Assembly: GCA_027669155.1 (NCBI GenBank)
Contig: JAQEDR010000027.1
Location: forward strand, 1-26,092
Length of the DNA stretch: 26,092 nt
Direction: 5' to 3'
Source of the DNA: Peptoniphilaceae bacterium AM52-5BH
GTDB taxonomy: Bacteria > Bacillota > Clostridia > Tissierellales > Peptoniphilaceae
Positions 2,223-25,970 of this stretch are shown here, one piece after another. How positions within the stretch are numbered: the first letter of the stretch is position 1; every line of letters begins with the position of its first letter. A model generated the notes under the pieces. That model saw only the letters and a list, made by a program, of their open reading frames with translations, had not been told where the DNA came from and did no database searches. Made by a program: the position numbers and the translations under genes.

Positions 2223-5200
2223 ATGACAACCACAAAAAAAGAAAAAATAAAAATATTTATATCTTACGGCCACAAGGAATCTAAAATTTTCAAAAAAGTA
2301 GTAGCCTACCTCAGAGAAAAGGGATACGAAGTTTGGTTTGATGAGTCATCCATAAAAGGAACAGATGATTGGCGCCAAGAAATAGTAGAAGGCATAAGAG
2401 AAAGCCAAACAGTAATAGCAGGCCTTTCCCATGACTTCTTGAAAGAGGGTGGAGTCTGCTCAGAAGAAATGGGCATAGCCCTCGCCATAAAAAGCAATAG
2501 GATATTCACAATATATCTAGATAAGAAAGAAGACCTAGAAAAAATACCATCAACCATGACAAGGAGCCAATATATAAACTTAAGCGATTGGAAAGAGTAT
2601 ATAGACGATGACCAAGCTTTTGACCATTGGTTTAAGAAAGAATTTCAACCAATCATAGACAGGATAGAATCCAAAGACAACAAAGAATTCTCCGGTCACA
2701 TAAATAGACTCAGACATGCCCTAAGAATACCAGAAATAGGATCCAACAAAGTAAACTCCTACCTAATAAAAAAATACACAAAAAGGCCATGGATAGATGA
2801 AAAGCTTGAAAAGTGGAGAGCTAATCCCCAGGGCGAAAAAATAGCAGTAATTTATGGCAAGCAAGGCACAGGCAAGTCCCACTACGCCGCAATTAAATGC
2901 CACACCGACTACCATGTAGCAGCAAACTTCTTCTGTGAATACAACAAAGAAAACTTCTCCACCAACAAAAGCCTAATAAGAGATTTAGCCTTCCAACTAG
3001 CTTGCCAAATCCCAGATTACAGGACAGCCCTCTTATATCAACTAGAATCCATAGCCATAACCAATAAAAAAATAAATAAATTTGGCTTTGAAGAGATAGT
3101 AGATGACGGTCAAATCCACATAAGAGAAGACTACAGCGAAGATGAGGAATTTGACAACCTCATAGTAAGGCCCCTCTCAATATCCATAGATGGAAAAATG
3201 GAAACCCACTTAATCTTGATAGACGCCCTAGACGAAGCAGGCAAGGAAGAAAGATCAAGATTAATCGACATAATTGTAAACCACCTAGACAGGCTACCAA
3301 GATGGATAAGAATCTTAATCCTAACAAGACCAGAAGCAGACATAAAACCATACCTAGAAGATGCCCTAGAAATAGACCTAGACAAAGAAAGCAACAAGAA
3401 AGATATAAAGGTATTTCTAGAAACAAGTTTCGAAAACAAAACCTACCCAAACAAGGATGAAATAATAAATACAATAGTAGAAAAAAGCCAAGGCACCTTC
3501 CTCTATGCAGAACTAGTAGTAAAAGAAATATTAGGAAGAAGCTTATCCATAGAGGACATAGACAAACTTCCAAAGGGCCTAGCCAGGTATTTTTCATCTT
3601 GGTTTAAGAGAATATATCCAATAGAAAAAATCGAAAGCCTCTACAAAGAAAAAGACAGAAAAGCCCTAGCCATGATCCTAGCAAGCCCAGGGGCCCTACC
3701 AAAAGAAGAACTAAACAACCTCCTAGGCTGGGATCATAGTAAGACTTACGACTTCATAAAAAAACTAGAGAACTACCTAAGCAAAAAAGAAGACATAGAA
3801 GGCAAAGAGACAATAGAGATAGCCCACAAATACATGGCAGACTGGCTGTTATCAGACCTAGCAGGAGACTACAGAGTCTACAAAGAAGATGGCCTAGCAT
3901 ATATCTATAAAGGTATAGAAGAAATCTATATGCTAGACAAAGAAATAGATAGCCTCACAAGATACGAAAAACTAAACCTAATAGATGCCTTAAAAAACCA
4001 AAGGGGGAAAAAGGCACTGAAGGATTTCTTGAGGAATGATGTAGCTAAAGATAAAATGTTAGACTTTGCTTATGAAGAAAAAGAATATTTTAGAGTAGAA
4101 TCTGCGTCAAAACTATTTGAGGACATGATAGGACTGTATAAGGATGATGAGAATATATTATATTATTCATCAGCTTCTAATTACTATAACAACCTTTTAA
4201 ATGAAATAGGCAAGGAAGAAAAGTCTATTGAAATTCTTAAAAATGTTATAGAAAATTTAGAGAAACTTTCATCAATGAGAGATGATATAGCCTATAAAGA
4301 AGAACTTGATGTTTCATATAGCAACCTAGGAACCCTGTATCATTCAATGCAAAATTATGATGAAGCAGAAATCTATTATAAAAAATCGATAGATCTAAAT
4401 GAAGAACTAATAAAATATAGCAACTCTTTTGATACATCATTTCTAGCGAGCTCCTATACCAATTTAGGATACTTATATGTATCAATGCAAAGATATGAAG
4501 AGTCAGAAATTTATCATAAAAAATCAATAGACCTTAGAGAAAATTTAAGACAATCTCACAATTCTCTGGATGATATATCAGATTTAGCAGGTTCCTATCA
4601 CAACCTAGGATATTTATATGAATCAATGCAAAGATATAAAGAGTCAGAAATTTATTATAAAAAATCTATGGGACTTAGAGAAACTCTCAGGGAATCTCGC
4701 AACTCTTTTACAGATATATCCAATTTGGCAGGCTCATACAACAATCTAGGAACCTTATATTACTCAATGCAAAGGCGTGAAGACTCAGAAATCTATCAAA
4801 AAAAAGCGATAAATTTACACGAAGAACTCAAAAAATATCGTAACTCTCTAAATGATATATCCGACCTAGCAAGGTCCTATAACAACCTGGGAAACTTATA
4901 TCAATCAATGCAAAAATATGAAGACTCAGAAATCTATCATAGAAAAGCGATAGCTTTATATGAAGAACTCAAAAAATCTCGTAATTCTCTAAAAGATATA
5001 TCCGATCTTGCAATTTCTTATATTAGATTAGGTTCCTTGTATAAATTAATTCAAAATTATGAAGAAGCTGAAAGTCATTATAAAAAAGCAGTAGCTTTAT
5101 ATGAAGAGCTAAAAAAATCTCGTAATTCCATAAAAGATAAATCAGGTCTGGCAACTTCCTATAACAACATAGGAACTTTATATTACTCAATACAAAGGCA

Positions 5201-5870
5201 TGAAGACTCAGAAATATATTTTAAAAAAGCAATAGAATTATACGAGGAACTCAAAAAATCTCGAAACTCTTTAGATGATATATCAGACCTAGCAAAATCC
5301 TATGACAATCAAGGAATCTTATATTACTCAATACAAAGGCATGAAGAGTCAGAAATTTATCTTAAAAAAGCAATAGAATTATACGAGGAACTCAAAGAAT
5401 CTCGAAACTCTTTAACTGATATATCGAACCTCTCAAGGGTCTATAATAACCTAGGAGTCCAATATTATTTAATGCAAAGGTACGAGGAATCAGAAAATTA
5501 TTATAAGAAAGCAATAGAATTATACGAGGAACTCAAAGAATCTCGAAATTCTTTAACTAATTTATTAGACCTATCAATGTCCTATGACAACTTAGGTAAC
5601 TTATATTATTCAATGCAAAGATATGAAGAGTCAGAAATTTATCTTAAAAAAGCAGTAAATCTTAGAGAAAATCTTATAGAATCTCACAATTCTCTGGATG
5701 ATATATCAGACCTAGTAAACTCATATAATAATCTAGGATATTTATATGAATCAATGCAAAGGAATGAAGAATCAGAGTTATATTATAAAAAAGCTGAAAA
5801 TTTGCGAAAAAGCCTAAAAAATCAGAATCAGTCGGGTAAAATTTACGAAATTATAGTGAGAAAAAAATGA
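2223..5870 (+). CDS. TIR-NACHT (STAND)-TPR immune receptor, intact copy
   Basis: The protein is 1215 aa; GAAGGAG lies 8 bases before the ATG. Residues ~8-145 form a TIR domain: IKIFISYGHKES, GYEVWFD, IRESQTVIAGLS, and VCSEEMGIAL with E82 as candidate catalytic Glu. Residues ~200-480 form a NACHT-type P-loop NTPase: Walker A GKQGTGKS with K218, Walker B LILIDALDEA with D334 and DE337-338, and LILTRPEAD as the sensor region. Residues ~500-650 are a helical winged-helix-like linker. Residues 698-1200 are 11 tandem 47-residue TPR units (consensus SYNNLGxLYxSMQRYEESEIYxKKAI). Family knowledge: prokaryotic TIR domains consume NAD+ or make cyclic ADP-ribose products, and STAND NTPases oligomerise on target binding. 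I infer an antiphage, abortive-infection-type receptor with TPRs as sensor. It lies between a broken TPR gene and a broken paralogue whose ATG overlaps its stop as ATGA. Confidence 0.9.
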   Translation: MTTTKKEKIKIFISYGHKESKIFKKVVAYLREKGYEVWFDESSIKGTDDWRQEIVEGIRESQTVIAGLSHDFLKEGGVCSEEMGIALAIKSNRIFTIYLDKKEDLEKIPSTMTRSQYINLSDWKEYIDDDQAFDHWFKKEFQPIIDRIESKDNKEFSGHINRLRHALRIPEIGSNKVNSYLIKKYTKRPWIDEKLEKWRANPQGEKIAVIYGKQGTGKSHYAAIKCHTDYHVAANFFCEYNKENFSTNKSLIRDLAFQLACQIPDYRTALLYQLESIAITNKKINKFGFEEIVDDGQIHIREDYSEDEEFDNLIVRPLSISIDGKMETHLILIDALDEAGKEERSRLIDIIVNHLDRLPRWIRILILTRPEADIKPYLEDALEIDLDKESNKKDIKVFLETSFENKTYPNKDEIINTIVEKSQGTFLYAELVVKEILGRSLSIEDIDKLPKGLARYFSSWFKRIYPIEKIESLYKEKDRKALAMILASPGALPKEELNNLLGWDHSKTYDFIKKLENYLSKKEDIEGKETIEIAHKYMADWLLSDLAGDYRVYKEDGLAYIYKGIEEIYMLDKEIDSLTRYEKLNLIDALKNQRGKKALKDFLRNDVAKDKMLDFAYEEKEYFRVESASKLFEDMIGLYKDDENILYYSSASNYYNNLLNEIGKEEKSIEILKNVIENLEKLSSMRDDIAYKEELDVSYSNLGTLYHSMQNYDEAEIYYKKSIDLNEELIKYSNSFDTSFLASSYTNLGYLYVSMQRYEESEIYHKKSIDLRENLRQSHNSLDDISDLAGSYHNLGYLYESMQRYKESEIYYKKSMGLRETLRESRNSFTDISNLAGSYNNLGTLYYSMQRREDSEIYQKKAINLHEELKKYRNSLNDISDLARSYNNLGNLYQSMQKYEDSEIYHRKAIALYEELKKSRNSLKDISDLAISYIRLGSLYKLIQNYEEAESHYKKAVALYEELKKSRNSIKDKSGLATSYNNIGTLYYSIQRHEDSEIYFKKAIELYEELKKSRNSLDDISDLAKSYDNQGILYYSIQRHEESEIYLKKAIELYEELKESRNSLTDISNLSRVYNNLGVQYYLMQRYEESENYYKKAIELYEELKESRNSLTNLLDLSMSYDNLGNLYYSMQRYEESEIYLKKAVNLRENLIESHNSLDDISDLVNSYNNLGYLYESMQRNEESELYYKKAENLRKSLKNQNQSGKIYEIIVRKK
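4314..5810 (+). repeat. coding tandem repeat, ~141 bp units (TPR array 1)
   Basis: Eleven head-to-tail 141-bp units (the first is 138 bp) encode 47-residue TPR units. Neighbouring units share long nearly identical stretches such as GAACTCAAAAAATCTCG and TCAATGCAAAGATATGA. The array can expand or shrink by recombination without shifting frame. Confidence 0.85.
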
Positions 5871-7246
5871 CAGATAAAACAAATCAAAAAATAAAAATCT
5901 TCATCTCCTATGGTCGTACCGAATCAGAAATCTTCAAAAAAATAGTATCCTACCTAGAAAGCAAAGGCTATGAAGTATGGTTCGACCAAACAAAGATAAA
6001 AGGAACAGACGATTGGAGAGAAAACATAATCAAAGGCATAAGAGAAAGCCAAACAGTAATAGCAGGACTCTCAGAACATTTCCTCAGAAAGGGTGGAGTA
6101 TGCTCAGAAGAAATGGGCATAGCCCTCGCCATAAAAAGCAACAGAATCTACACAATCTACCTAGAAAAAAAAGAAGACTTAGAAAAAATCCCATCAAGTC
6201 TAACCAGACGCCAATGGGTAGACCTAAGCGACTGGGAAAAATACAAAGAAAACGAAAAAGACCTAGACAAATGGTTAGAAAAAGAAATCCAACCAATCAT
6301 AAAAGCCATAGAAAGTAAAGACAACAAAGAATTCTCAGGCCAAATCAACACCATAAGACGTGCCCTAAAAATCCCAGAAATAGGATCCACCAAAGCCAAC
6401 TCCTACCTAATAAAAAAATACACCCCAAGAGACAACCTAGACCAAAAAGTAAACGAATGGATAAAAGAAAAAAACGGCAAAAAAATAGCAGTAGTTTATG
6501 GTAAGCCGGCCACAGGCAAATCCCACTACGCCGCAGAAAAATGCCACACTGACTACCATATAGCAGCAAGCTTCTTCTGCGAATACAACAAAGAAAACTT
6601 CTCCACCAGCAAAAGCCTAATAAGAGATTTAGCCTTCCAACTAGCCTGCCAAATCCCAGACTACAGGACAGCCCTACTCCACCAACTAGAATCCATAGCC
6701 ATAACCAAGAAAAAAATAAACCAAATGGGCTTTGAAGAGACAGTAGACGATGGCCAAATCCACATAAGAGAATACTACAAAGAAGCAGAAGAATTCGAAA
6801 TCCTAATAGCAAGTCCCCTATCCATATGCATAGACGGCGACATGGAAAACAAAATAATCCTAATAGACGCCCTAGACGAAGCAGACAAAGTAGAAAGAAA
6901 CAAACTACTAGACATAATAAAAACCCACCTAAATAGGCTCCCAAGATGGATAAAAATCCTAATACTCACCAGAACAGAAACCGACATAAAATCCTATCTA
7001 GATGACATCCATGAAATAAACTTAGACACAGAAGAAAACAAAAAAGACATCAAAACCTACCTAGAAGAAACATTTGAAAAAGAAACCTACCCAAACAAAA
7101 AAGAAATCATAGAAACAATAATAGAAAAAAGCCAAGGTACCTTCCTCTATGCAGAGCTAGTAGCAAAAGAAATCCTAGAAAAAACCATGGACAAAGAAAG
7201 CCTAGACAAACTCCCAACAGGCCTATCAAGCTACTTTCTAAACTGA
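5867..7246 (+). CDS. TIR-NACHT, 5' part of split second paralogue
   Basis: This 459-aa open part is co-linear with the upstream receptor, with the same spacing of all motifs. The TIR has ISYGRTES, GYEVWFDQ and VCSEEMGIAL (E82). Walker A is GKPATGKS (K218; the middle Gly of the first copy is Ala). Walker B is ILIDALDEA, followed by LILTRTETD. DNA around the P-loop (about 6500-6740) is close to identical to 2856-3080, indicating recent duplication or gene conversion. It starts inside the previous gene's stop (ATGA, 5867-5870), so translation is probably coupled. It ends at TGA 7244-7246. The first copy has ..SSWFKRIYPIEK and this one reads ..LN-stop-FSRIYPIEK, so the stop replaces Trp. If expressed, the product would be a TIR-NACHT without its TPR sensor, which is either inactive or constitutively toxic. 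Confidence 0.75.
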   Translation: MTDKTNQKIKIFISYGRTESEIFKKIVSYLESKGYEVWFDQTKIKGTDDWRENIIKGIRESQTVIAGLSEHFLRKGGVCSEEMGIALAIKSNRIYTIYLEKKEDLEKIPSSLTRRQWVDLSDWEKYKENEKDLDKWLEKEIQPIIKAIESKDNKEFSGQINTIRRALKIPEIGSTKANSYLIKKYTPRDNLDQKVNEWIKEKNGKKIAVVYGKPATGKSHYAAEKCHTDYHIAASFFCEYNKENFSTSKSLIRDLAFQLACQIPDYRTALLHQLESIAITKKKINQMGFEETVDDGQIHIREYYKEAEEFEILIASPLSICIDGDMENKIILIDALDEADKVERNKLLDIIKTHLNRLPRWIKILILTRTETDIKSYLDDIHEINLDTEENKKDIKTYLEETFEKETYPNKKEIIETIIEKSQGTFLYAELVAKEILEKTMDKESLDKLPTGLSSYFLN

Positions 7247-10036: not shown

Positions 10037-10118
10037 GTGTCTAGGAATATAGGAAAAATTGTTAATTTTTGTGGTCTATAATTTTATTAGAAAGTTAGGG
10101 AGGAGAAAGGAGGCTCGG

Positions 10119-10922: not shown

Positions 10923-11824
10923 TGAATCATCTTACAAGACCTCAAACCATCTACCAGGGCTGGGACATAGATAGGATTAAGGGACTTTTTGCAAGGGAGA
11001 ATTGGATAGGTCTTAATCTTGACCAGAGGAAGGACCTTCTCCAAGAATATGCAAATATCAGGACGGAAAAGATGGGCATGGATTTTTATCCTAGCCTCCA
11101 CCTGGATGAAATGGATGAGGGAGTCGGAGGCTCTTACCTTGATGGGAAAATCCATATGAATATCAATGAAGTAGCAAATGACTTTAGGAGTACCCTTACC
11201 ATCACAGGTCAGATGGAAAATACCGAAATCAAGCACTCAAATTTTGAGGCCTTTGAGACAATCTGCCACGAGCACCAACACGCCTACCAAGATTTTGTTA
11301 TGAGAAATAAAATCGACACAGATGGCCAGTTTCTTGAGGATATGAGCGTCAATGATGGGATAGCCATGGCTAAGGATTATCCTTATAGGATTTCAAGCCT
11401 TTACATATTAGCTGATGCAAATCCTCTGGTCTATAGGCTCCAGCCTTGTGAAAATGACGCCTATGTCAAATCAGAGATGGAAACTTATAGGCTGATTGAG
11501 GAACTTGAGGATAGGATAGACCTACAAAGCCCAGCAAATAGGGAATCAATCGAGTCTTACCAAAAAATGAGGTCCATAAATGGCCAAGAGGTCATCAGAA
11601 ATAGGGCAAGCCTTATCTATGGGGTGGAAAATCCAAGCCAGGTCATTAAGGAAAGCTTGGAATCCATCAGGGCTGGGAATATAAATAAGGTTCCTAGCTC
11701 ACCCTTAGAAAGGGACGTCCTAGATTCTAGTTTGAGGACCCTAGAGCTTTCAAATAGGAATGAAAACAAGTTAGAAGACAATATCGAAGTAAATAAAGAT
11801 ATCAAATGGGGGTTATCATTATGA
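10922..11824 (+). CDS. HExxH zincin-like metallopeptidase
   Basis: The product is 300 aa with start TAATG-overlapped to the preceding gene. A zinc-protease motif, CHEHQHAYQDF, gives H116-E117-x-x-H120. About 57 residues later an ENDAY segment (E177) could supply the third ligand in a gluzincin-like way. HExxHxxQ motifs of this kind occur in uncharacterised phage and mobile-element peptidases of Firmicutes. There is no signal peptide, so it acts in the cytoplasm unless exported by the cluster. The N-terminal ~100 residues carry no recognised motif. It ends in an ATGA overlap with the ATPase gene, tying it to that machine. Processing of a cluster component, or being a secreted toxin, are both possible. 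The substrate is unknown. Confidence 0.7.
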   Translation: MNHLTRPQTIYQGWDIDRIKGLFARENWIGLNLDQRKDLLQEYANIRTEKMGMDFYPSLHLDEMDEGVGGSYLDGKIHMNINEVANDFRSTLTITGQMENTEIKHSNFEAFETICHEHQHAYQDFVMRNKIDTDGQFLEDMSVNDGIAMAKDYPYRISSLYILADANPLVYRLQPCENDAYVKSEMETYRLIEELEDRIDLQSPANRESIESYQKMRSINGQEVIRNRASLIYGVENPSQVIKESLESIRAGNINKVPSSPLERDVLDSSLRTLELSNRNENKLEDNIEVNKDIKWGLSL

Positions 11825-13143
11825 GAAAAACTATAATTTGTGGCAAGGAAATTAAGGATAAGTTTGAGAAAAACCAAGTCTTTGACTTGGACCTATCCTT
11901 GGGATCTGGCCAATTTGGTTTGACCTTTGACCAGATTTCCAAACATCTGATGTTTTTGGGCTCTCCTGGCACAGGCAAGACCAATGCCATCAATATACTA
12001 ATTGATGAGCTTTTGAGGAAAAAATCCGTCCAAGACTCTCTTTTTATCTTTGATTCTAAGGGAGATTTCTACAGGCAGTTTGGCCATAGGCCTTGCAAGA
12101 AACTTGTGATTTCTAACCAGTATCCAAATTCAGCCTGCTGGAATATCTTTGGGGAAATCATGGATTTTGACCAAAACACAGTCTATTATGACAAGAAAAA
12201 CGAAATATTTGCCAGGGAAATAGCCAAGATGCTCTTTGCTGACAAGGAATCTGACCACCAGCCATTTTTCCACAATGCAGCAAGTGACATCACCTCAAAG
12301 GTTATCTTATATTTTCTCCGCCAGGCGAAAAATATGGGTGATACTTCTATGCTAAATAATTATTTTCTGGCAAATTTCCTAAAAACAGCCTCTAAAGAAG
12401 ACCTACTAGGGATTTTGGCCAGCAAGGAAAATCCTGATTTTAAGGGAGCCATAGAATATATAAATTCTGCTGATGGTCAAAGTCAAGGAGTTCTTTCCTT
12501 TATAAAGGAAATGGCAGCAGATCTTTTGGTAGGAGTTTTTGGCGGTTATGAAGAATGCCAGGCTAGGGAAAACCAATTTTCCGTAAGGAAGCTTGTTAAA
12601 AACCAAGCCTATGATGTGGTTTTTATAGACTATGACATAAGTGCATCCAAGGCCCAGGCCCCAATATATAAGGTCATTGTCGACCTCCTCCTCAAATTTT
12701 CTATGAGCGGGAGGGAAGATTTCAGAAACAAGGTCTACCTTATCCTTGATGAGATATCCCTTTTGCCAAAGTTATCTTACCTAAGCGATGGCCTTACCTT
12801 TGGTAGGTCGAGGGGCCTTAGGCTAATAGCTGGCATTCAGAGCGTGGACCTAATCTATGACACCTACGGGAGTCATTTGGGCAATGTCATAATTTCAAAC
12901 TTTATGAACATAGTTGCCTTCTACTTATCGGATGCGGTCAGTAGAGACTTTGTTAGCAAATATTTTGGCCTAGCCTACCTTGATTATAGCTTCTCACCAG
13001 GCAATAGACATGCCAATTCCCAAAGGGAGGGCTATGTGGTAGAAGATTGGGACCAAATGAATTTGGAAATGGGCCAGGCCTTTGTTAAAGTGGCAGGCAC
13101 AAATCCAATAAGATACAAGTTTAGGCTTTATAAGGAGGACTAG
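11821..13143 (+). CDS. VirD4/TraG-like (FtsK-HerA class) ATPase, catalytic motifs intact
   Basis: The product is 440 aa from ATG 11821. This start overlaps the previous stop as ATGA and has GGGGG 7-8 bases upstream; an ATG at 11806 is in frame but less well placed. Walker A is FLGSPGTGKTN (K53). The segment IFDSKGDFYRQF (D78-K80-D82) matches the DxKGE/D motif of type IV coupling proteins. Walker B is VYLILDEIS (D310-E311), followed by SDGLTFGRSRGLRLIAGIQS, the usual TraG/VirD4 Gly-Arg/Gln finger region. No N-terminal membrane segment is present, so it must be recruited to the membrane by partners, perhaps the two small membrane proteins downstream. Coupling proteins pump DNA or protein substrates. 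No relaxase or VirB4 is in the window. Confidence 0.85.
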   Translation: MRKTIICGKEIKDKFEKNQVFDLDLSLGSGQFGLTFDQISKHLMFLGSPGTGKTNAINILIDELLRKKSVQDSLFIFDSKGDFYRQFGHRPCKKLVISNQYPNSACWNIFGEIMDFDQNTVYYDKKNEIFAREIAKMLFADKESDHQPFFHNAASDITSKVILYFLRQAKNMGDTSMLNNYFLANFLKTASKEDLLGILASKENPDFKGAIEYINSADGQSQGVLSFIKEMAADLLVGVFGGYEECQARENQFSVRKLVKNQAYDVVFIDYDISASKAQAPIYKVIVDLLLKFSMSGREDFRNKVYLILDEISLLPKLSYLSDGLTFGRSRGLRLIAGIQSVDLIYDTYGSHLGNVIISNFMNIVAFYLSDAVSRDFVSKYFGLAYLDYSFSPGNRHANSQREGYVVEDWDQMNLEMGQAFVKVAGTNPIRYKFRLYKED

Positions 13144-14695: not shown

Positions 14696-14906
14696 ATTTA
14701 AATATTATTTATCACGCTACAGCAAGGTCTTTTTCTACCTGGGAATCTTTCTAATCCTAGCTAGCCTCATCTACAGGTGGGCAGATATAAGGGCCTTTAT
14801 AGATGGCCTTATTAGCTTTATTTGGCTAATATTTATGAATATCACCCTATTTATCGTAATTATAGCGAGCATTTGGGGAATAATAAAATCAATTTTTAGG
14901 AGGTAA
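14688..14906 (+). CDS. very small membrane protein, two transmembrane helices
   Basis: The product is 72 aa, overlapping the previous gene by 8 bases, with AAGGAGGG before the start. The helices are FFYLGIFLILASLIYRW and IFMNITLFIVIIASIWGII, ending in KSIFRR. Its size, topology and coupling resemble the preceding gene, so the two may form a hetero-oligomeric membrane anchor or channel. No family is recognised. Confidence 0.7.
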   Translation: MNEFKYYLSRYSKVFFYLGIFLILASLIYRWADIRAFIDGLISFIWLIFMNITLFIVIIASIWGIIKSIFRR

Positions 14907-14908
14907 AA

Positions 14909-15436
14909 ATGATTAAAGTTAGAAAAAAACCGGGCCTAGTTATGGCCTTTAGCTTGGGAAGTGAAAATCCCTTTGAAGATTATTTTATAGATCTGGGCAA
15001 GCTTAGAAAAAATAAGGACTCCTATGAGGTTTTTAGCAAGGAGACCAGGGGAGGTAGGGGTCAAAAAGCTGACATAGGTGACTTTATAAAGATAGATAAG
15101 CAAGAAGATATCTATCCAGTTAAGGCCTGGGATTTTGAAAAAAATCATAAAATAATTTCTGCTAATATATACTTAGAAGCCAGCAAGGTCCGCAAAGCCT
15201 TTAGAGCCAGTGACTTGGATGGGGAAATAATTTCTTATCTGATGAATAAGGGATTTTTACAAATTCTAGGAGATCCTGACCAATATTATATGGCAAGGGT
15301 AGGATCTGGCCTAGTCTATGGACGAAAGGATGACTATCTTTTGATTTATTCTGAGGATATGGAGGGGACTTGCAAGTATGACTTCAATTTTGTTGACAAA
15401 GAAGTTTTTGAAAAAACTTATGAAGTTCTTTACTAA
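14909..15436 (+). CDS. unrecognised soluble protein, 175 aa
   Basis: It starts 2 bases after the previous stop, with AGGAGG 5 bases before the ATG. The N-terminus is basic (MIKVRKKPG) and is followed by mixed alpha/beta sequence. Distinct segments are KETRGGRGQKADIGDFIKI, YPVKAWDFEKNH and RVGSGLVYGRKDDYLLIYSED. There is no signal peptide, membrane segment or catalytic motif that I can name. Its position suggests a cytoplasmic component of the ATPase machine. Confidence 0.7.
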   Translation: MIKVRKKPGLVMAFSLGSENPFEDYFIDLGKLRKNKDSYEVFSKETRGGRGQKADIGDFIKIDKQEDIYPVKAWDFEKNHKIISANIYLEASKVRKAFRASDLDGEIISYLMNKGFLQILGDPDQYYMARVGSGLVYGRKDDYLLIYSEDMEGTCKYDFNFVDKEVFEKTYEVLY

Positions 15437-15447
15437 GGAGGGAATTT

Positions 15448-16233: not shown

Positions 16234-16235
16234 AA

Positions 16236-16440
16236 ATTTGGGAATACGAGAAAAATCTCCTTCAAATATGGCTTATGATTGGATTATAGAAAAGATAGGG
16301 GCTAGTTTAGACTTGTCTTTGCTATAAAAATCTTAGTCAAAGAATTTTGGGAAGATGGGAAAAATCTCCCTCAAATATGGCTTATGATTGGATTGTAGAA
16401 GAGATAAGGGATTTTCATACTTATCTTAATAGAAAAAATA
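16236..16440 (+). repeat. 109-bp non-coding tandem duplication before the lipoprotein gene
   Basis: Two copies start at about 16236 and 16345. TCAAATATGGCTTATGATTG recurs at 16262 and 16371. Flanking AGAAAAATCTCC/GGAAAAATCTCC and GATTATAGAA/GATTGTAGAA also match. The distal part ACTTGTCTT..TATAAA (copy 1) corresponds to ACTTATCTTAATAGAA (copy 2), possible -10 regions. The 230-base gap 16234-16464 holds no gene. Confidence 0.8.
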
Positions 16441-16464
16441 TTTTATTCATTAGGAGGAATAAAT

Positions 16465-17661
16465 ATGAAAAAAATATTAGTTAATCTAGCACTTGTTATG
16501 GTATTGATCTTCGTTTCTGCTTGCGGAATAGTTGGAGGTCAAGAAGCAGAAAAGGAAAATGTCCAAATTCTTTTGGGCATAAGGAATAATTCCAAGTCTC
16601 CTGACCTAAAGAAAGCAGAAGAGGAAATCAAGGGAGCCTTAAAAAGCCAGGGGAATTTGGGCCTAACCCTTATTGATGGGTCACCAAAGCTTGTAAAAAG
16701 CGTTGACAGTCCAAAACTTGATGCCATGCTTACTCCATCAAAGAAGCAATTTATTCTCAATACCCAGTTTGAGGAGATTAATGGCTTTATTAAAGAATTA
16801 AGACCTCAGGCACCTGAGTGTGATATTCTAAAGGCCATAAGTATATCAGCAGATAATCTTGCTGATAAGAATGGGATCAAAAGTCTGGTTATAATGGATA
16901 GTGGCTTATCAACCACAGGTCTACTAGACTTTAGGTCAGCTGATGTGGCAAGCCTTAGGATAGATGATATCATAAGGGCCCTTCAAAGCAAAAAGGCCAT
17001 CCCAAATCTAGAGGGAGTAGATGTTTCCTGGTATGGAATGGGTCAAACTACTGACCCTCAGATAGAGCCTTCTAGTGAATATAAGTATGTCCTAGAAGAA
17101 CTCTGGACAGCTATACTCAAGGAAGCTGGGGCAAAAAGTGTCCACATAGCCAGGGAAAGCATAGAGGATGTTGAGGCTGATAGGTCTGATTATCCTCCAG
17201 TAAGTCCAGTAGACTGTAAGCTAGAAGAAAGCGTCATAGCTTCTTTAGACGAGCCTATGGTCTTTGGCCAGGAAAAGATCGAGTTCAAGTCAGATAGCGC
17301 CGAGCTTTTGACTGACAAAAAGGATGTGGAAGCCAGGCTAAAACCTATAGTGGATTTTATGAATGAGAATTCTCATGAGAAAATCCTCTTAGCAGGCACA
17401 ACAGCTAAATATGGTAGTCAAAAATCTTGCGAAGACTTATCTTTCAAAAGATGCGAGACCATAAAAACCATCTTGGTCAAGATGGGAATAGAAGAGGACA
17501 GGATTGTGCTTTTGGGACTAGGTTTTGAAAATCCCTTCTACCAAAATGACCTAAAGGAAGATGGGAGTCAGGATGAAGCTTTGGCAGTTAAAAACAGGAC
17601 TGTTATAGTCATGTCTTTAAATAGCCAAATAGCCAAGGACTTGCTTGGAAAAAGGAGCTAA
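16465..17661 (+). CDS. lipoprotein with C-terminal OmpA-like domain
   Basis: The product is 398 aa; AGGAGGAA lies 8 bases before the start. A classic type II signal peptide (MKKILVNLALVMVLIFVSACG) has lipobox SAC and acylated C20. Residues ~35-240 form an alpha/beta domain with IKSLVIMDSGLSTTG, VSWYGMGQTTDPQ and LEELWTAILKEAGAKSV, loosely vWA-like in its DxGxS. Residues ~270-390 match the OmpA/MotB fold: IEFKSDSAELL, a central ILLAGTT..YGS, DLSFKRCETIKTILVKMGI, and KNRTVIVM in place of NRRVEI. OmpA-like domains bind peptidoglycan. In a Gram-positive cell, a membrane-anchored copy would tie the machine to the wall. Cysteines near SCEDLSFKRC may form a disulfide. The next ATG follows one base after its stop. 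Confidence 0.85.
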   Translation: MKKILVNLALVMVLIFVSACGIVGGQEAEKENVQILLGIRNNSKSPDLKKAEEEIKGALKSQGNLGLTLIDGSPKLVKSVDSPKLDAMLTPSKKQFILNTQFEEINGFIKELRPQAPECDILKAISISADNLADKNGIKSLVIMDSGLSTTGLLDFRSADVASLRIDDIIRALQSKKAIPNLEGVDVSWYGMGQTTDPQIEPSSEYKYVLEELWTAILKEAGAKSVHIARESIEDVEADRSDYPPVSPVDCKLEESVIASLDEPMVFGQEKIEFKSDSAELLTDKKDVEARLKPIVDFMNENSHEKILLAGTTAKYGSQKSCEDLSFKRCETIKTILVKMGIEEDRIVLLGLGFENPFYQNDLKEDGSQDEALAVKNRTVIVMSLNSQIAKDLLGKRS

Positions 17662-17662
17662 G

Positions 17663-18298
17663 ATGATAAGGGTATATACAGGTCTGGTTGAGACCAACAA
17701 GGCTGATAAGAAAATCATCAAGAAAAGATTAGTCAAATCCAAATGGCGTTTGATGAAAAAAGGCTTTATTGATGAGAAGAATAATATGATTATCCTAGAT
17801 AAGGATGGTCAATTAAGCTCAAACTTCATTGAAAGGGAATATTTCAAGCTGGAAAATAACCTAGCCAACTTTTACCTCAAATACAATGAGTATTATGTGA
17901 GTCAAAGCAAGGATAGATTTGGTTATAAGACCCTGCTTGATGACCTTAGGGTGAATTTTGATAGGGTTGATACAAAAAACCTCCCTACCACAGCCAGGAG
18001 GAAAAACCAAGCTAGGATCCTTGATAACAAGGAAGGCCTCAAAAGATATTACGATGTCAAAAGGGAAATCTTGACTATAGATTGCCATACAAATGTGATT
18101 GTCCAAAACTTTCACTTAAATATAATGGCAGCAAAGTATCTTTTTGAAGAAAATATGTCAGCCTACCTTCAAGGAGCATACCTGGCAAATAAGAAAAAAA
18201 TTTACGAGGATGAATACCAAGTAAATATCAAAAAGGTATTTGAAGATATCAGAAGAAATTATTCTGGTAAATATTTAGAGGAGGAAATAGATGGCTAA
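17663..18298 (+). CDS. unrecognised helical protein, 211 aa
   Basis: I choose ATG 17663 because AAAGGAG is 6 bases upstream and it avoids overlap with the lipoprotein gene; an in-frame ATG at 17645 lacks this. The protein is basic, with no membrane segment. Notable parts are ..KKRLVKSKWRLMKKGF.. near the N-terminus and the helical YLQGAYLANKKKIYEDEYQVN near the end. Size and composition resemble the 261-aa protein upstream (basic start, helical body, late LANK), but I cannot show homology. It overlaps the next gene by 8 bases. Confidence 0.7.
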   Translation: MIRVYTGLVETNKADKKIIKKRLVKSKWRLMKKGFIDEKNNMIILDKDGQLSSNFIEREYFKLENNLANFYLKYNEYYVSQSKDRFGYKTLLDDLRVNFDRVDTKNLPTTARRKNQARILDNKEGLKRYYDVKREILTIDCHTNVIVQNFHLNIMAAKYLFEENMSAYLQGAYLANKKKIYEDEYQVNIKKVFEDIRRNYSGKYLEEEIDG

Positions 18299-18701
18299 AA
18301 AAGGCCTTAGGACCAACCAATTTAACGAGGACTTGCTAGATGATTACAGCTTGGATATAAACTTTTCCTATCCGAGTAGGGAAGATGCAAAGGCAGCCCT
18401 CTTGCCAAAGATTAATGAGTTTTTAAACCAGGATAATACCCTTGATAAAGACTCTGAAGCAGACTTCTTATTGGGAGAAATCAGGGACTTTATAGATGAA
18501 AATATAAAGTACCTAAGCAAACAAAAGTCTGATATGGCCTTAACCCTTAAGAAGACCAATATAAAGAATGATAGGGCTATAGAAAGGTGCCAGGGAGAGC
18601 TAGATCAAATAGCCATAGAAATCCTGACCTTACAGAACAAAAAAACCGAGTCATTCTTTACTAAGATCAAGGCATGGTTTAAGTCATGGTTTGGTAAATA
18701 A
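18291..18701 (+). CDS. coiled-coil protein with amphipathic Trp-rich tail
   Basis: The product is 136 aa; GAGGAGG lies before the ATG, which sits inside the previous gene's end. Residues ~60-120 are heptad-like (..IDENIKYLSKQKSDMAL.., ..CQGELDQIAIEILTLQNKK..), suggesting a coiled coil. The C-terminus FFTKIKAWFKSWFGK is an amphipathic helix that could lie on the membrane. No family is recognised. A linker between cytoplasmic parts and the membrane is plausible. Confidence 0.7.
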   Translation: MAKKGLRTNQFNEDLLDDYSLDINFSYPSREDAKAALLPKINEFLNQDNTLDKDSEADFLLGEIRDFIDENIKYLSKQKSDMALTLKKTNIKNDRAIERCQGELDQIAIEILTLQNKKTESFFTKIKAWFKSWFGK

Positions 18702-19741: not shown

Positions 19742-21877
19742 ATGGATCAAACACCTAGAGATAAAAGCAATAATATGATGTATTCCTTTGGCTACACAGC
19801 CTTGGTAAATAAGGATAATGAAGATTGGATAAATAAATTTACCAATGAATTATTTGAAATTGAGGATTCGTTTTCCAATCTTCTCCTCCCTTATGAAGAC
19901 CAAAGGCAGATAGAAATCAAAAGCAAACCTCCATTTTATAAGTATATAATAAACTACTTAATGTGGAAGTATCAAGATAAGTTAGGAATTGATAAGAAGG
20001 ATATAGAGGCAAAGGCCAGCGAGATTTTTTCTGCTATAGAAAATGGCAAAAAAAATGATTTGCTAGAAAGCTTAGCTGACTATGTTTATGAAGATTTTTG
20101 CGAAAATGGACTTTCCAACAAGGACCAGGACAATTTTGATAAGCTAGACTTTGCCAGGACTAAGAAGGATGACCAGCTAAAACCAATAAATGCTAGTGCC
20201 TATGTCAGATCTGGCATCAAAAAAGATATCCTAATCACAACAAACCCTCAAAGAAAAAAGATATTGATCTTATCCTTTGGTCTAAATATGGATCTAGATA
20301 CTACCAATGTTTTTCTTAAAAAAGTATTGGGAGAGGAAGGGCTCAATTTTTGGGATGAAGAAGAATTTTTAATCTATATCTGCAAAAAATTCTACGATGG
20401 TAGGGTCGATGAATATATCAAGCTAAAAGAAATATATAACAAGGTAGAGGCCCAGCCGATTTTAAGCCAGGACTTGGTAGATAAGGAAAAAACCCAAGAG
20501 ATTCTGGATATATTTAGGGAATTTATAGAAAAATCCAGAGACGATGACTTTCTAAATATAGAAAAAATCCTAGGAGCCTATAAATATATAAGTCAAAACA
20601 AAACAAGACAGAGAACTATAGAAGAGAGATTTTCCAGGTCCTATAAAAATATAGAAAACAAATTATCCTACGATATTGTAAGTTCCAAGGATATATTGAA
20701 AAAAGAGAAGGAAGATAAGGAAGATTCAGAAGGAGAAGATACCTATGTCAAAGATGAGGATCTTAATTCAAAGGGATATAATGTTAAATATAAGGAAGAA
20801 TTTAAGATAAGGATTTATCCAAAAGTAGGTAAAAAGGTCAAGATTAAAAAGGGTGACGAAATTTTTGGTCAAGAATTAAAAAACAATAGCAAAGCCGATT
20901 TTGTTATAAAAGTAGATGAGAATTACCAAATTGAGGCAGAGGACTATCTGCAAATGGATATTAGAGTCAATAGCGAAGTTCTTTTTGAAAAAAATCCAGA
21001 AAACAAATTCATCTATCACAAGGAAGGTAGTGGTGTAGATGAAGAGCTCATAGATCCAATTTATTACGGCCTAGATGAGGATAATATAAATCACTATGGT
21101 AAAAATTACTATGAAGCATTTATAAATTGTAAGCTCAAAGCTTCAGAGGAACCTATTGAATTTGGTGATTCGATTTACTATGGCGACCAAGAATTTATGG
21201 TTTTAGATGAACTGCCAAGGCTAAACTACCTAGAAATTACAATCTTAGGTCCAGAAAAAAAGACAAGATTGGTTAATATACCAGATATTAAGGGTGCTAA
21301 GTATAGTTTTAGGTCAAATAATAAGGATATAGAAAGAATAGAATTTGTATCCCTTGCTATAAAAACAACCTATAAGGAAAGTATGCTATCCTACCTATAT
21401 AACAAGAAGGCCCTAACAGCCTTTAATCCTAAATATTTAGAAAAGCTTGAGCTATATAGCTGGAAATATGAAGAATTTTACCAAATGCTAAATGATAAAA
21501 GGATTACTCCGAAATATATTAGTAGCATAATAAATATGAAAGGCTCTCAAAGTCTTGATAGGATAAAATTTATAAATATTTTGTTTTTAGAATTTATTAT
21601 GGATGCAGAGGAAAGATACTCTAGCCTTGGTGATGAAGAAAAGATCCAAAAAGTACCAGCCTATGCAAGAAAGGCTTCTTATATTAGGTTTATGAATTAT
21701 GAACTTAAAAAAGTAGGCATGTATGAATATAATCTTTCAAACTCTTATGAAGATCTTTTGGTAAGGATAGCCTGCACAAACGAAGCCTTGGAAACCTATA
21801 GGCAGGTTTGGGGCTTGTATGATTTGATTAAAATGGCAAAAAAAGAAGAAAATAAAAAAGGAATAGTTAATGAATAA
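19742..21877 (+). CDS. unrecognised 711-aa protein, partner of the kinase fusion
   Basis: AAGGAG lies 5 bases before the ATG. Residues ~1-140 are helical. A segment near 165-215, RKKILILSFGLNMDLDTTNVFLKKVLGEEG.., resembles a small helical module that I have seen in uncharacterised Firmicutes regulators (inference). Residues ~310-345 are a charged linker (KKEKEDKEDSEGED). Residues ~350-530 look beta-rich (KVKIKKGDEIFG.., YLQMDIRVNSEVLF, YLEITILGPEKKTRLVNI), possibly Ig-like or FHA-like. The rest is helical. There is no signal peptide or membrane span. It overlaps the kinase fusion by 8 bases, so the two are made together. A kinase substrate or scaffold role is inference. No catalytic motif is visible. 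Confidence 0.75.
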   Translation: MDQTPRDKSNNMMYSFGYTALVNKDNEDWINKFTNELFEIEDSFSNLLLPYEDQRQIEIKSKPPFYKYIINYLMWKYQDKLGIDKKDIEAKASEIFSAIENGKKNDLLESLADYVYEDFCENGLSNKDQDNFDKLDFARTKKDDQLKPINASAYVRSGIKKDILITTNPQRKKILILSFGLNMDLDTTNVFLKKVLGEEGLNFWDEEEFLIYICKKFYDGRVDEYIKLKEIYNKVEAQPILSQDLVDKEKTQEILDIFREFIEKSRDDDFLNIEKILGAYKYISQNKTRQRTIEERFSRSYKNIENKLSYDIVSSKDILKKEKEDKEDSEGEDTYVKDEDLNSKGYNVKYKEEFKIRIYPKVGKKVKIKKGDEIFGQELKNNSKADFVIKVDENYQIEAEDYLQMDIRVNSEVLFEKNPENKFIYHKEGSGVDEELIDPIYYGLDEDNINHYGKNYYEAFINCKLKASEEPIEFGDSIYYGDQEFMVLDELPRLNYLEITILGPEKKTRLVNIPDIKGAKYSFRSNNKDIERIEFVSLAIKTTYKESMLSYLYNKKALTAFNPKYLEKLELYSWKYEEFYQMLNDKRITPKYISSIINMKGSQSLDRIKFINILFLEFIMDAEERYSSLGDEEKIQKVPAYARKASYIRFMNYELKKVGMYEYNLSNSYEDLLVRIACTNEALETYRQVWGLYDLIKMAKKEENKKGIVNE

Positions 21878-24800
21878 AGCAGACCAAAGATTACCAGATA
21901 AATTTTCTGTAAAAATAGAGGGGATGAACAATACCTTTTATGATATTGAAGTTCTAGAGCCTAAGCAAATCGGCGAGGGCAGAAGTGTAAGGGTTTACCA
22001 AGCAAGGGTCAATCTTGATAAGTCCACCACAAAAACCATGATTATAAAAGAGCTCAAGCTTGTAGAAAATAACAAGATAGAGATAAACAAAAATAGGAAT
22101 GATATAGAAAATATATTTTTGGTTTACTATCGCAAAAATAATCCAAGCTATTTTGTTGATAATCAAGAGAAGAAAAAATTTAAAGATGACTTTTTTAAAA
22201 ATAAAAGGATCTTTTCTATCCTAGGAGATGATATGGTAGAGCCCCTATATTTAGCGACCTATGAGGGAAGAGCTCTGGCCTTTTATGAAACAAACAATGC
22301 CAGGAGTCTTGATAATTTCAAATCCTTGGACCTCTTTAGGATAGTAGAAGTTATGCTAAGCCTAGCAAAGATTTTGAAAAATATCCATGACCAAGATATT
22401 GTCTACATGGACCTAAGCCCAAACAATATCCTATACGACTATGAAAGCAGGAAGGTAAGGCTTTTTGATTTTGATGCCTGTATAGACTTAAAGAAAAAAG
22501 ACCAGGTAAGGGAAATATACGGACCAAGCCAACAATCTTTCCTAGCACCAGAGTTTAAAAACACAACAGATATGGATACTATCAGGTCATTTTTCATAAA
22601 TCCTAGCATAGATACCTTCATGTTTGGCTCAAACCTATTTTATCTAATAACTGGCAAATACCTTAACGATAAGATCTTAGAAGACGAAGAACTGATGAGG
22701 GACCTTCTTGCTGGGGAGCTTAACAAAATAAAAAACAAGATTTTTGTAGACGAAGAGATAAGTAAAATCCTAATAGACCTAGTTGTAGAGTGCGTTAAAA
22801 TATATGACAGGTTCATAAGTGATAGTAGTATAATCGAAGACCTAAGCAGGGCAAAAAAATCCATCGAAAAAAAGATGAGACAGCCCCTACTCGACCTTGT
22901 TGGAGCAGCCCATATCTTGGATAAGCACCCTCTTTATGACTATATAGATGAGGATTCAAATATAAATGTAGGGATAATTGCTGATAATGAAAAGGCAAAA
23001 CTATATTTCGATTTGATCTTCGCCCCACTTTTGATAGAAGGAGTCAAGTTAAATTTCACTTTTTATTATAGGAAATCTAGCAATTTTCACGAGTATCTTA
23101 TAGAAAGGGCCCCTCTTTTAAAAAGGACCTGCCAGATAAAGATAAATGGCGAGATAGCTTATGATAAGGTAGATGAGTCCATAACAGACGATACCTATGC
23201 CCATATAGATTTCATAGAAGTAGAAAACTTTGACGACTTAGCTGATATAGAGAAAAATACCTATATCCTAATTTTGGAAAATAAAAACACCAAGGAAGAA
23301 AATCTAGGCAAGAGAATTTTTGATAAGGTCAAAAATGATGACAAAAAAAGAGCCATTATCGTAAGGTCTTTTGACCTTAGCAAGGATAGGACAGATGAAA
23401 ATGAAAAGGCAACTATCCTAATCTACTATGACCAAATCAAAATGGCAACTGAAGAAAGGGGCATATTTGAAGGTAGAATCCTTGAAGAAGCCTTTGGAGT
23501 CCATAGTTTTTATGAACTTTCAAGCAATGAAAGGATTGACAGGGACGAATTATTCGACAATTTTATAAAATCAGATGACCTATACAATGCCAAATCATCC
23601 CTAAGGTCAGCTCTTTCCATCAAATACAAATTCTATGACTGTGGCATTCACAATATCCCAAGACCTTATAGAGAATTTTCAAAGCTAATCAAAAATGAAA
23701 CTCCAATTGATCCAGATAAGCCTCAAGGTCCGACAATTAGGGATAAGATGGCCTATATGGAACACCATTCATGGAATAAATTTATGATAGTAGAAGGCTA
23801 TGAAAAACCTAGCGATGAGGAATTTTTCTCCTATGCCTATAAAAATAACAATGACCATAGAGACAAAAAGGCAAGGCCTTACCCTCTCCATCCTCTCATA
23901 AGCAACTATCACCTAAAAAGAATAGATAGCCAAGAAATAGATGAGATAGACAGGATTTCAGAAAATATAAGCAAGGCCCAAGAAGCAAGCATAAAAACTT
24001 CCGAGCAAAGCCTAGCTTACGATCTCAAATTTTTAGCAAGGGACTATGACTATCCTTTAGACCCTGTGAATGCTAGTTTAAAATCCTATATGCAAAAGCT
24101 AGCCAACCTTATAGAAAATATCAAAAAGGGCGATAAGGATAGCCAGGCTATTTATAAATTTATCGATAGGAGGATAAAAGATTTATTGGAGAGGGGCAGT
24201 CATCAAATATCTCCTTATGTCAAGGACAAGTATACGGCAATTGATGATAGGGTAAAAATAATAATTTCTTATAAAAACTACAAAAATTATAGGCTCGTAG
24301 ATTATGATATAGTAGATGCCATAGGCCAGATTGTTTATGGGCCTGTAGATATACTTTATAAGCCATTTGTATCTGATGAGGGTAGCCTTTGGAAAAATAT
24401 AGCTGCAGTCCTTAAATTTAGACCAGCCCAAGTTGTCTTTATAAAAGATCCAGAAGAAAATATTGCCCATAAATTTGAAACAATCAAGAGCTTTCTCCGT
24501 GATAAGAGAAATTTAAGCTCAACATCTATAAGAATTATAGACCAAAACCAGGCTAAGTTTGAAGTGGAAAATCATTATGATAAGAATATAATCTTTGATT
24601 TTACAGGCAACACCGTTAAGCAGGCTAGATTTACTTCATTCCTTAATATGGCAAGGCCAGTTCCCTATGTCATCTACGAAGGCAATAACCAATGGGATGG
24701 AGACTACGAAGGCCTTGACTACAACCTAACAAAACCTAGCCTAAGTATAGAAGAGACTTTCTACCTAAACAACGCTAGGCTTGATACAGAAGATAAGATA

Positions 24801-25970
24801 AATAGCTTCTTGGATTTAGATATATACGCAGACAGCTTGTGGAAGGTTTATAACTCTATAAAAGGTAAAGATTATAGAAATTACATCTATACCTTAAACA
24901 TGGGACAAAATTCATATATATTCTCCCTAAATAATATCTTAAAATCAGGAACCGAACATTCAGAAGAAGTAGGAGAAAGAGTAACCCAAACAAATAGGGA
25001 TGACTTTAGACCAGTCCTTATGGCCTTGGATGCTTTAAAAGTAAATGGCTTTATTATATCCTATAGCTTTCCTAATAAACAAGGATATTTGGAAGTAGAA
25101 TCTTATGATGAAAATTACCTAAAGAAGTTAAAAGAATTTTTATCTCGTTGTATAAAAAATAGGATAGAAAACATTAGCCTGGTCAAACTAAATTATAGGT
25201 TAGACAATATAGAAACAGAGTGGGTTCAACGCAGAGACTATTACTACCTAGTCAGTTCATCCTTAGACTGCGATAATGAGATATATACAGAAGATCTTTT
25301 GCCAAACAAAGTAGCAGAAAAGTTTGCCCAAGAAGATGTAAAAGAATATGTCTCTGATTTTAACGACTTTATGGCAAAGTATAACAATTATAGGCAAAAT
25401 GAGGAACTGCAGATTTTTAATATACTAGATGATAAAAAAACGGACTATGCTATATATGATAGGAAAAATGATAGTGTAAGACTTAATTTTTCTTATGGGT
25501 CTATGGCATTTAGGGACTTTTTTACCAGGGAAGGTAATGCCCTTGAAACCTATGCTTTCTTCAAAATTGCAAGGTTCCAGGATATTTTTGACAATGTCGG
25601 ACTAAATATAGAAATTGATTGGAAAGCTGATGATGTTTTTGATAAGGATAGCGAGCTTATCAAAAACGAAATAGACATAGTTTGCATCAAGGGTCTTACA
25701 ACATATTTGATTTCCTGCAAGCAATCAAGACTTAGAAATGAATTTATCTATGAAATAGGCTACCACGCCACAAAATTCGGTATAGGGACAGTCCCAATCA
25801 TAATAAATTCCTATAAGTATCATGGAGATGAATTAGATAGGCTAAGAAATAGATGCCAACAATCAGGAGTCTTGCTCATAGATAGAGATACACTTGATGG
25901 CGATTTGAAGGGATATTTTGAAAACTTAATCTCATCTAATAAAAAAATTGATAAAATTCCTAATTTATAG
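21870..25970 (+). CDS. 1366-aa fusion: protein kinase, Rossmann, RyR, CARF-like, PD-(D/E)xK-like
   Basis: Residues ~28-320 are a Ser/Thr-type kinase: IGEGRSVRV loop (G35-S39), K60, YMDLSPNN (D181, N186), DFD in place of DFG (D200) and APE (226-228), so probably active. Residues ~364-505 look Rossmann-like (NINVGIIADNE.., LKRTCQIKING). Residues ~620-690 resemble a RyR domain of the kind fused to TrkA-N-like Rossmann folds (MAYMEHHSWNKFMIVEGYE, W635; PLHPLISNYHL). Residues ~795-945 resemble a CARF domain (RPAQVVFIKDPEE; FDFTGNTVKQARF, G913, versus the usual TGGTK). Residues ~1220-1366 resemble the DUF1887/Card1-type nuclease: GNALE (E1226), NEIDIV (D1269), ISCKQ (K1284), where the usual Glu of ExK is S1282. 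It overlaps the 711-aa gene and ends the unit. The kinase is certain in outline; RyR and nuclease are likely; CARF is tentative. Confidence 0.8.
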   Translation: MNKADQRLPDKFSVKIEGMNNTFYDIEVLEPKQIGEGRSVRVYQARVNLDKSTTKTMIIKELKLVENNKIEINKNRNDIENIFLVYYRKNNPSYFVDNQEKKKFKDDFFKNKRIFSILGDDMVEPLYLATYEGRALAFYETNNARSLDNFKSLDLFRIVEVMLSLAKILKNIHDQDIVYMDLSPNNILYDYESRKVRLFDFDACIDLKKKDQVREIYGPSQQSFLAPEFKNTTDMDTIRSFFINPSIDTFMFGSNLFYLITGKYLNDKILEDEELMRDLLAGELNKIKNKIFVDEEISKILIDLVVECVKIYDRFISDSSIIEDLSRAKKSIEKKMRQPLLDLVGAAHILDKHPLYDYIDEDSNINVGIIADNEKAKLYFDLIFAPLLIEGVKLNFTFYYRKSSNFHEYLIERAPLLKRTCQIKINGEIAYDKVDESITDDTYAHIDFIEVENFDDLADIEKNTYILILENKNTKEENLGKRIFDKVKNDDKKRAIIVRSFDLSKDRTDENEKATILIYYDQIKMATEERGIFEGRILEEAFGVHSFYELSSNERIDRDELFDNFIKSDDLYNAKSSLRSALSIKYKFYDCGIHNIPRPYREFSKLIKNETPIDPDKPQGPTIRDKMAYMEHHSWNKFMIVEGYEKPSDEEFFSYAYKNNNDHRDKKARPYPLHPLISNYHLKRIDSQEIDEIDRISENISKAQEASIKTSEQSLAYDLKFLARDYDYPLDPVNASLKSYMQKLANLIENIKKGDKDSQAIYKFIDRRIKDLLERGSHQISPYVKDKYTAIDDRVKIIISYKNYKNYRLVDYDIVDAIGQIVYGPVDILYKPFVSDEGSLWKNIAAVLKFRPAQVVFIKDPEENIAHKFETIKSFLRDKRNLSSTSIRIIDQNQAKFEVENHYDKNIIFDFTGNTVKQARFTSFLNMARPVPYVIYEGNNQWDGDYEGLDYNLTKPSLSIEETFYLNNARLDTEDKINSFLDLDIYADSLWKVYNSIKGKDYRNYIYTLNMGQNSYIFSLNNILKSGTEHSEEVGERVTQTNRDDFRPVLMALDALKVNGFIISYSFPNKQGYLEVESYDENYLKKLKEFLSRCIKNRIENISLVKLNYRLDNIETEWVQRRDYYYLVSSSLDCDNEIYTEDLLPNKVAEKFAQEDVKEYVSDFNDFMAKYNNYRQNEELQIFNILDDKKTDYAIYDRKNDSVRLNFSYGSMAFRDFFTREGNALETYAFFKIARFQDIFDNVGLNIEIDWKADDVFDKDSELIKNEIDIVCIKGLTTYLISCKQSRLRNEFIYEIGYHATKFGIGTVPIIINSYKYHGDELDRLRNRCQQSGVLLIDRDTLDGDLKGYFENLISSNKKIDKIPNL

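Follow-up and report, generated by a model that had tools for sequence, protein, structure and literature searches.

The 26,092-nucleotide stretch of Peptoniphilaceae bacterium AM52-5BH analysed here (contig JAQEDR010000027.1, hereafter the window) encodes on its forward strand a protein of 1366 amino acids (aa), in which a protein kinase is followed by Rossmann, RyR-like and CARF-nuclease parts. The locus raises the question of which of these parts senses a signal, which one acts on it, and where such a signal would come from. The answer that we tentatively favour, with rather less than even confidence, is a TIR-linked, RyR-gated kinase, in which the kinase is the main output and the optional CARF-nuclease serves as a second sensor or accessory effector. 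The parts of the protein were delimited as follows; the RyDEP ligand residues are those of a 2026 preprint (PMC13232231).

21870..25970, + strand: whole gene, 1366 aa, with kinase, Rossmann, RyR-like, helical linker, CARF, winged helix-turn-helix (wHTH) and PD-(D/E)XK parts
21870..22889, + strand: protein kinase domain, residues ~1-340, with K60, D181, N186 and D200 (Pfam PF00069, 1.2e-14)
22881..23600, + strand: Rossmann domain, residues ~338-577, for which an NAD-binding and an RCK/TrkA-N type both fit
23562..23960, + strand: RyR-like domain, residues ~565-697, with pocket residues matched to the RyDEP ligand residues
23763-23765, 23772-23774, 23889-23891 and 23940-23942, + strand: codons of the pocket residues H632, W635, H674 and D691, respectively
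23961..24338, + strand: helical linker, residues ~698-823, from the secondary structure of the predicted model
24339..24719, + strand: CARF domain, residues ~824-950, with strand-4 DFTGNTVK (DFT at 910-912)
24720..25481, + strand: connecting region with a wHTH-like part, residues ~951-1204, inside the full-length structural match to VC1899/Can2
25482..25940, + strand: PD-(D/E)XK nuclease-like domain, residues ~1205-1357, with E1226, D1269, S1282 and K1284

This architecture is real and common to the whole family. Three protein searches returned 53 relatives: 13 are close, 21 form a clade at about 30% identity with Anaerococcus copies among them, and 19 stand further off, 16 of these with a precomputed PF09002 assignment and 15 of the 16 also with PF00069. 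Genome scans yielded the Anaerococcus loci L001-L008, locus L009 in a Lachnospiraceae metagenome-assembled genome and loci in further genomes of the same class. A chance open reading frame (ORF) or an assembly fusion was ruled out, since the protein has 58 relatives and 13 of these match 99-100% of the query at 64-94% identity. The domain order of kinase, Rossmann/RyR pair and Can2/Card1-like CARF-nuclease, proposed in a preliminary description made from the sequence alone, was borne out by the PF00069 match and by a full-length structural match of the predicted model to Can2/Card1/VC1899. The profile and structure searches that this description suggested recovered the kinase (Pfam) and the CARF-nuclease (structure), and left the RyR part below the Pfam cut-off.

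Residue counts refer to 59 sequences, namely the window copy, P0001-P0053, L009, L048, L095, L096 and L133, which are related by descent and do not give independent counts; L001-L008, L051 and L052 are not rows of this set, and some of them are probably identical to listed P entries. Full-length copies occur in 8 of the 130 genomes of the A. nagyae family group, which were scanned with alignment A1 (10 of 35 sequences); some match was found in 52 of the 130, the rest being mostly kinase domains. The closest genome copy found (G022, 71% identity) belongs to this group, so that the window probably stems from a relative of Anaerococcus. Alignment A7 (26 of the 59 sequences, with L048 and many close copies left out) gave a match at E ≤ 1e-20 in 217 of 391 genomes, mostly to kinase or nuclease domains alone, and long matches in at least five of them (G361, G242, G001, G003 and G437). 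Single-protein scans of genome contigs, viral contigs and plasmids detected no close relative, and no relative was found in viral contigs scanned with alignment A2, which like A3 holds 33 of 35 sequences (P0003 and P0004 left out).

The kinase part scores 54.8 bits against a curated PF00069 cut-off of 31.7, and the catalytic K/D/N/D residues are present in the window copy. All 57 sequences that cover this region retain D181, N186 and D200, and K60 is retained in 56 of 58. The PADLOC mad6 profile matches this part only (1.4e-9). In the A. nagyae copy at L001 (9881-13900), a single in-frame stop separates the kinase from the remainder.

The RyR-like pocket is conserved to a similar extent: H632, W635 and D691 are kept in 59/59 sequences and H674 in 57/59, including members down to ~20% identity. 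The RyDEP preprint describes a phage RyR protein that binds and cleaves 2'/3' cyclic ADP-ribose (cADPR), contacting the ribose through H75 and D117, the adenine through W78 and the phosphates through H100, and describes these four positions as conserved across PF02026; six of eight tested RyDEP homologs bound signals, none of these homologs degraded them, and the question is raised whether animal ryanodine receptors are receptors of cADPR-type signals (PMC13232231). The pocket would thus point to TIR-made signals, because its four residues match the RyDEP contacts with cADPR, a likeness that the preliminary description had overlooked. The profile of the RyR part listed five sequences in the PDB, all of them RyR1 or RyR3, as weak (E 0.27-1.6) but specific matches. 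The sole Foldseek match of the isolated RyR model was a Bacteroides RyR protein and was not significant (E=8), and no RyR chain was among the matches listed when the whole-protein model was compared. At locus L135, a membrane TrkA-like protein of 739 aa, whose own PF02026 match is weak (0.08), adjoins a bona fide RyR gene and has a Rossmann-RyR stretch in common with L096 (27.6%, 4e-16). Since several weak tests agree and the pocket residues are conserved, we regard residues ~565-697 as a RyR domain that has diverged. At L135 (7124-9627), L098 and L099, in other genomes of the class, stand-alone RyR genes adjoin TrkA-like proteins that end in a RyR stretch; these pairs are apparently a separate RyR system.

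A candidate source of the signal lies in the window itself, which the preliminary description missed when it held that any ligand would come from elsewhere.

2223..5870, + strand: TIR-NPHP3_N-TPR protein that may supply an NAD-derived signal (TIR_2, 3.1e-20)
5867..7246, + strand: second TIR-NPHP3_N protein, which ends before the TPR part (TIR_2, 1.2e-22)

The second tandem copy is split over two ORFs, 5867-7246 (TIR-NPHP3_N) and 7316-9946 (TPR part), and is apparently broken, judging from the reading frames. The region 2223-9946 contains 22 TPR-coding repeat copies, mostly spaced by 141 nt. Of the 24 TIR_2 matches in 12 host genomes, 12 are no more than 20 kb away from the kinase gene (G242 3/3, G361 4/4, G437 4/5 and G006 1/7); uniform and independent placement of the 19 matches in these four chosen genomes would put ~0.3 near the gene, a figure that serves as a yardstick only. 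At L095 and L096, the gene immediately upstream encodes a PP2C phosphatase (2e-19 and 8e-23), in a Pfam scan that covered some neighbours only, and a stand-alone RyR gene lies just downstream of the kinase gene, followed by TIR genes. A kinase-phosphatase pair with RyR and TIR genes close by is in keeping with phospho-signalling that a TIR signal sets off. A DUF4062-NPHP3-TPR protein of the STAND type adjoins the gene in Anaerococcus loci L001 and L006 (Pfam), and TPR-protein homologs do so in L002 and L008; replacement of TIR-STAND by DUF4062-STAND beside these four loci is a possible swap of the signal-making domain.

The preliminary description had looked to cyclic oligoadenylates as the ligand, and sources of these were searched in the 12 host genomes, some of which may be incomplete. 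Csm1 was found over the cut-off in 0/9 and 0/3 host genomes, Cmr2 in 0/12 and mCpol in 0/12; the CD-NTase family SMODS was present in 1/12. Cyclic oligoadenylate is therefore less likely as the ligand and is no longer the default assumption; as the positive controls of the cyclase searches are thin, the idea is weakened rather than rejected.

We infer the ligand, activation, substrate and role in defence as follows. In a candidate anti-phage system of Clostridia, the protein would be the kinase that integrates the signals. A TIR-domain protein encoded nearby, or a related STAND protein, would detect infection and make an ADP-ribose-type signal. The RyR-like pocket would bind this signal, H632 and D691 contacting the ribose, W635 the adenine and H674 the phosphates. 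The Rossmann and CARF parts, which probably also make the protein dimeric, would pass the binding event on to the N-terminal kinase and so switch it on; the activated kinase would phosphorylate a partner or itself, and in some relatives the adjoining PP2C phosphatase would undo the phosphorylation. The CARF-nuclease would act as a second nucleotide sensor and accessory nuclease that many relatives have lost.

Several observations weigh against this proposal. The five TIR_2 matches of G022, G034 and G036 all lie far from the gene, and in G001-G005 no TIR_2 match was found; another source of the signal would be needed in these genomes. Where TIR is far or absent, the neighbour is a DUF4062-NPHP3-TPR protein or nothing recognised. 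Defence genes cluster in any case, and proximity is weak evidence of function; no measured defence activity of a family member is known to us. PF02026 was not among the Pfam families for 33 members (E ≤ 10), nor among the best 25 of 34 families for 26 members (E ≤ 1), and at E ≤ 1 it was found in 0/9 host genomes. The hhalign comparison with stand-alone and TrkA-type RyR domains gave E=0.0013 at a probability of only 18.7, over the EHxxW...H region, and the RyR model has an overall pLDDT (predicted model confidence) of 73.5, with a poor C-terminal half. Outside the 59-sequence set, L005 has Arg for W635 and L007 has Asn for H674. P0009-P0011 are without the kinase activation segment (a deletion of ~26 aa) and keep the nuclease E/D/K intact. 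Csm1 matches below the cut-off occur in G001 and G242, and the positive controls are thin: among 14 control genomes, matches over the cut-off numbered three for Csm1, one for Cmr2, none for mCpol and two for SMODS. Our confidence in the RyR-gated kinase was lowered slightly, and that in a cyclic-oligoadenylate explanation raised slightly, on account of these controls. The G001 match (C6:21732-22040, L053) is an N-terminal Csm1 fragment that contains a stop and lies ~13 kb away from a kinase-CARF copy; it may be what is left of a type III CRISPR locus.

Other genes of the window bear on the alternatives. They were compared with 15 other loci (16 identifiers, with L133 and L134 counted as one and L006 and L008 overlapping on one contig), the flanks of which are limited, mostly to ~10 kb per side.

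19742..21877, + strand: partner of 711 aa and unknown fold, immediately upstream of the kinase gene, which it overlaps by 8 bases
14909..15436, + strand: small partner protein, 175 aa
16465..17661, + strand: lipoprotein-like protein with a C-terminal OmpA domain (Pfam, 7e-12), with homologs at L095 and L133 (2/15 other loci)
11806..13143, + strand: VirD4/TrwB-like ATPase (PADLOC mad8-like, 7.5e-16), with a homolog at L133 (1/15 other loci)

Homologs of the 711-aa protein lie directly upstream of the kinase gene in 5/15 loci (L001, L002, L006, L008 and L136), and those of the 175-aa protein near it in 6/15 (L001, L002, L006, L048, L133 and L136); PDB profile searches with these two partners returned nothing useful. 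Homology of the upstream genes of L096 (757 aa) and L095 (565 aa) to the 711-aa protein, suspected from look-alike stretches, was not supported (hhalign probability 0.3 each). At L133, the ATPase, the OmpA-domain protein and the 175-aa gene all have homologs together with the kinase. Six Anaerococcus-family loci (L003, L004, L005, L007, L051 and L052) showed no homolog of any window neighbour. In the window, the genes for the ATPase, for the OmpA-domain protein and for small proteins of membrane or unknown type (11806-18701) form one series with the kinase gene and share its direction. A 30-nt inverted repeat with an 8-nt loop follows the TPR gene (9971-10038), and two 201-nt direct repeats, 85% alike, precede the next gene run (10103-10523). 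A tRNA-Gln gene upstream of the cluster (834-909) is a possible integration site.

Among the alternatives, non-immune phospho-signalling survives best, and we consider it unlikely. The protein would then serve stress or cell-envelope control, with the CARF-nuclease and RyR parts as redox/nucleotide sensors and scaffolds. Conservation of the kinase and RyR parts, the PP2C partner at L095 and L096, the OmpA-domain protein in the window cluster and the six Anaerococcus-family loci without shared neighbours are consistent with such a role, but the patchy presence of full-length copies in the A. nagyae family group and the TIR, STAND-TPR and RyR genes in the neighbourhoods of other loci argue against it.

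Whether the protein is instead a CARF nuclease activated by cyclic oligoadenylate depends on its C-terminal part, in which the CARF, wHTH and nuclease folds follow the order of Can2/Card1/VC1899, the wHTH being covered by the full-length structural match rather than by a search of its own. The window copy has E1226, D1269 and K1284, and S1282 replaces the Glu of E-x-K, so that it departs from the canonical D...E-x-K site; a six-sequence profile alignment reads ISCK in the window where Can2 and VC1899 read IECK. Because of this Ser, the window nuclease may be weak or altered. In the family, D1269 is kept in 59/59 sequences, E1226 in 36/59 and K1284 in 35/59, with the E-x-K Glu position occupied by Glu in 19 sequences, Ser in 36 and other residues in four. 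The nuclease E/K is absent in ~40% of the sequences. A tree of 57 sequences (fragments P0031 and P0051 dropped), built from the columns outside the nuclease and without support values, requires four parsimony changes between intact and lost from an intact root: one at P0012, one for the clade P0014-P0034 and two around P0036/P0037, which places the loss in at least three lineages. The nuclease is thereby ruled out as an obligatory output, and the view that it is the main output is not supported.

The CARF strand-4 signature is given as [DN]X[ST]XXX[RK] (PMC4012209); the window follows it only approximately (D910-x-T912, with the basic residue one place late), and it was not seen in the stretch inspected of L095, L096 and ten of their clade. 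Against the PDB, the window nuclease alone gave no sequence at E ≤ 1, the L009 nuclease gave only AF1548 (0.12) and one unrelated sequence, and among the matches listed for profile A4, which spans the entire CARF-nuclease part, there was no CARF protein. The relation to Can2/VC1899 was found only by the six-sequence profile and by structure comparison. An oligoadenylate-activated nuclease, regulated by the kinase and RyR parts and supplied with ligand in trans by another system, would be in line with that structural match, with the E, D and K of the window copy, with Glu at the E-x-K position in 19/59 and with the sub-cut-off Csm1 matches. It is distinctly unlikely, given 12 host genomes without Cas10 over the cut-off or mCpol and with SMODS in one, the lost nuclease residues and the approximate or unseen strand-4 signature.

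A DNA-transfer or contact-dependent machine, built from the VirD4-like ATPase, the OmpA-domain protein and membrane proteins and regulated by the kinase, is improbable: the recurrence of the ATPase and OmpA homologs with the kinase at L133, the OmpA homolog at L095 and the VC1899-family CARF genes inside a T7SS-like/Ter cluster (T7SS, type VII secretion system; PMC4012209) speak for it, but neither gene has a homolog in 13/15 other loci within the limited flanks. It is very improbable that the RyR domain is a host-side enzyme that degrades the signal like phage RyDEP and resets TIR signalling while a CARF ligand controls the kinase and nuclease: the RyDEP catalytic pair H75/D117 has invariant counterparts in H632/D691, which speaks for it, but the tested homologs that bound did not degrade (PMC13232231), so that these residues do not imply catalysis, and fusion to a kinase suits a sensor better.

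The RyR-gated kinase can be set beside several known systems. Thoeris combines a TIR-made cADPR signal with a receptor-effector; similarly, the gene of a protein whose pocket may bind cADPR has a TIR gene nearby in the window and, within 20 kb, in four of the 12 genomes and not in the other eight, whereas the receptor here would be RyR and the output a kinase, and RyR-kinase is not a Thoeris effector type known to us. MADS includes the mad6 kinase and mad8 ATPase, both matched here by PADLOC profiles (mad8 by the window ATPase), and no other MADS component was found among the ten window proteins scanned (of 18 ORFs). Can2/Card1/VC1899 proteins (DUF1887, PF09002) share the CARF-PD(D/E)XK part, which in this family is fused behind kinase, Rossmann and RyR domains, with Ser for the E-x-K Glu in the window and no Cas10 over the cut-off in the host genomes. 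The likeness to RyDEP and PF02026 extends from the four ligand contacts to the H-x-x-W spacing and the 17-residue H-to-D gap of the window copy, whereas the domain lies inside a host kinase rather than a phage protein, falls below Pfam detection, and has a W-to-second-H stretch of 39 rather than 22 and an H-to-D gap of 25 in L096. CARF-nucleases and TIR signalling are already known, as are kinase-CARF fusions of another layout: the kinase-AAA+-CARF-wHTH proteins of Makarova (2014) likewise carry a kinase ahead of CARF and wHTH in a single polypeptide, but have a Zn ribbon and an AAA+ ATPase, and RyR and nuclease domains are not mentioned in the accessible part of that paper (PMC4012209). In open-licence PMC literature, no relevant paper joining RyR with CARF was found, and none on a Card1-type CARF domain fused to a protein kinase.

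The family may, which we regard as doubtful, represent a new class of immune relay, in which a host RyR domain reads TIR-made ADP-ribose signals and controls a kinase with CARF in the same chain, so that two families of nucleotide alarms converge on phosphorylation. If true, this would be the first use of the RyR fold as a bacterial host receptor for TIR signals known to us. TIR/cADPR and CARF/cyclic-oligoadenylate signalling, which have been treated as separate, may thus be linked through a kinase. Nuclease residues are frequently lost and kinase and RyR residues kept almost throughout, a pattern that predicts which parts are important. With this family one can readily test whether cells use RyR domains as receptors of cADPR-type signals, a question that bears on the animal ryanodine receptor.

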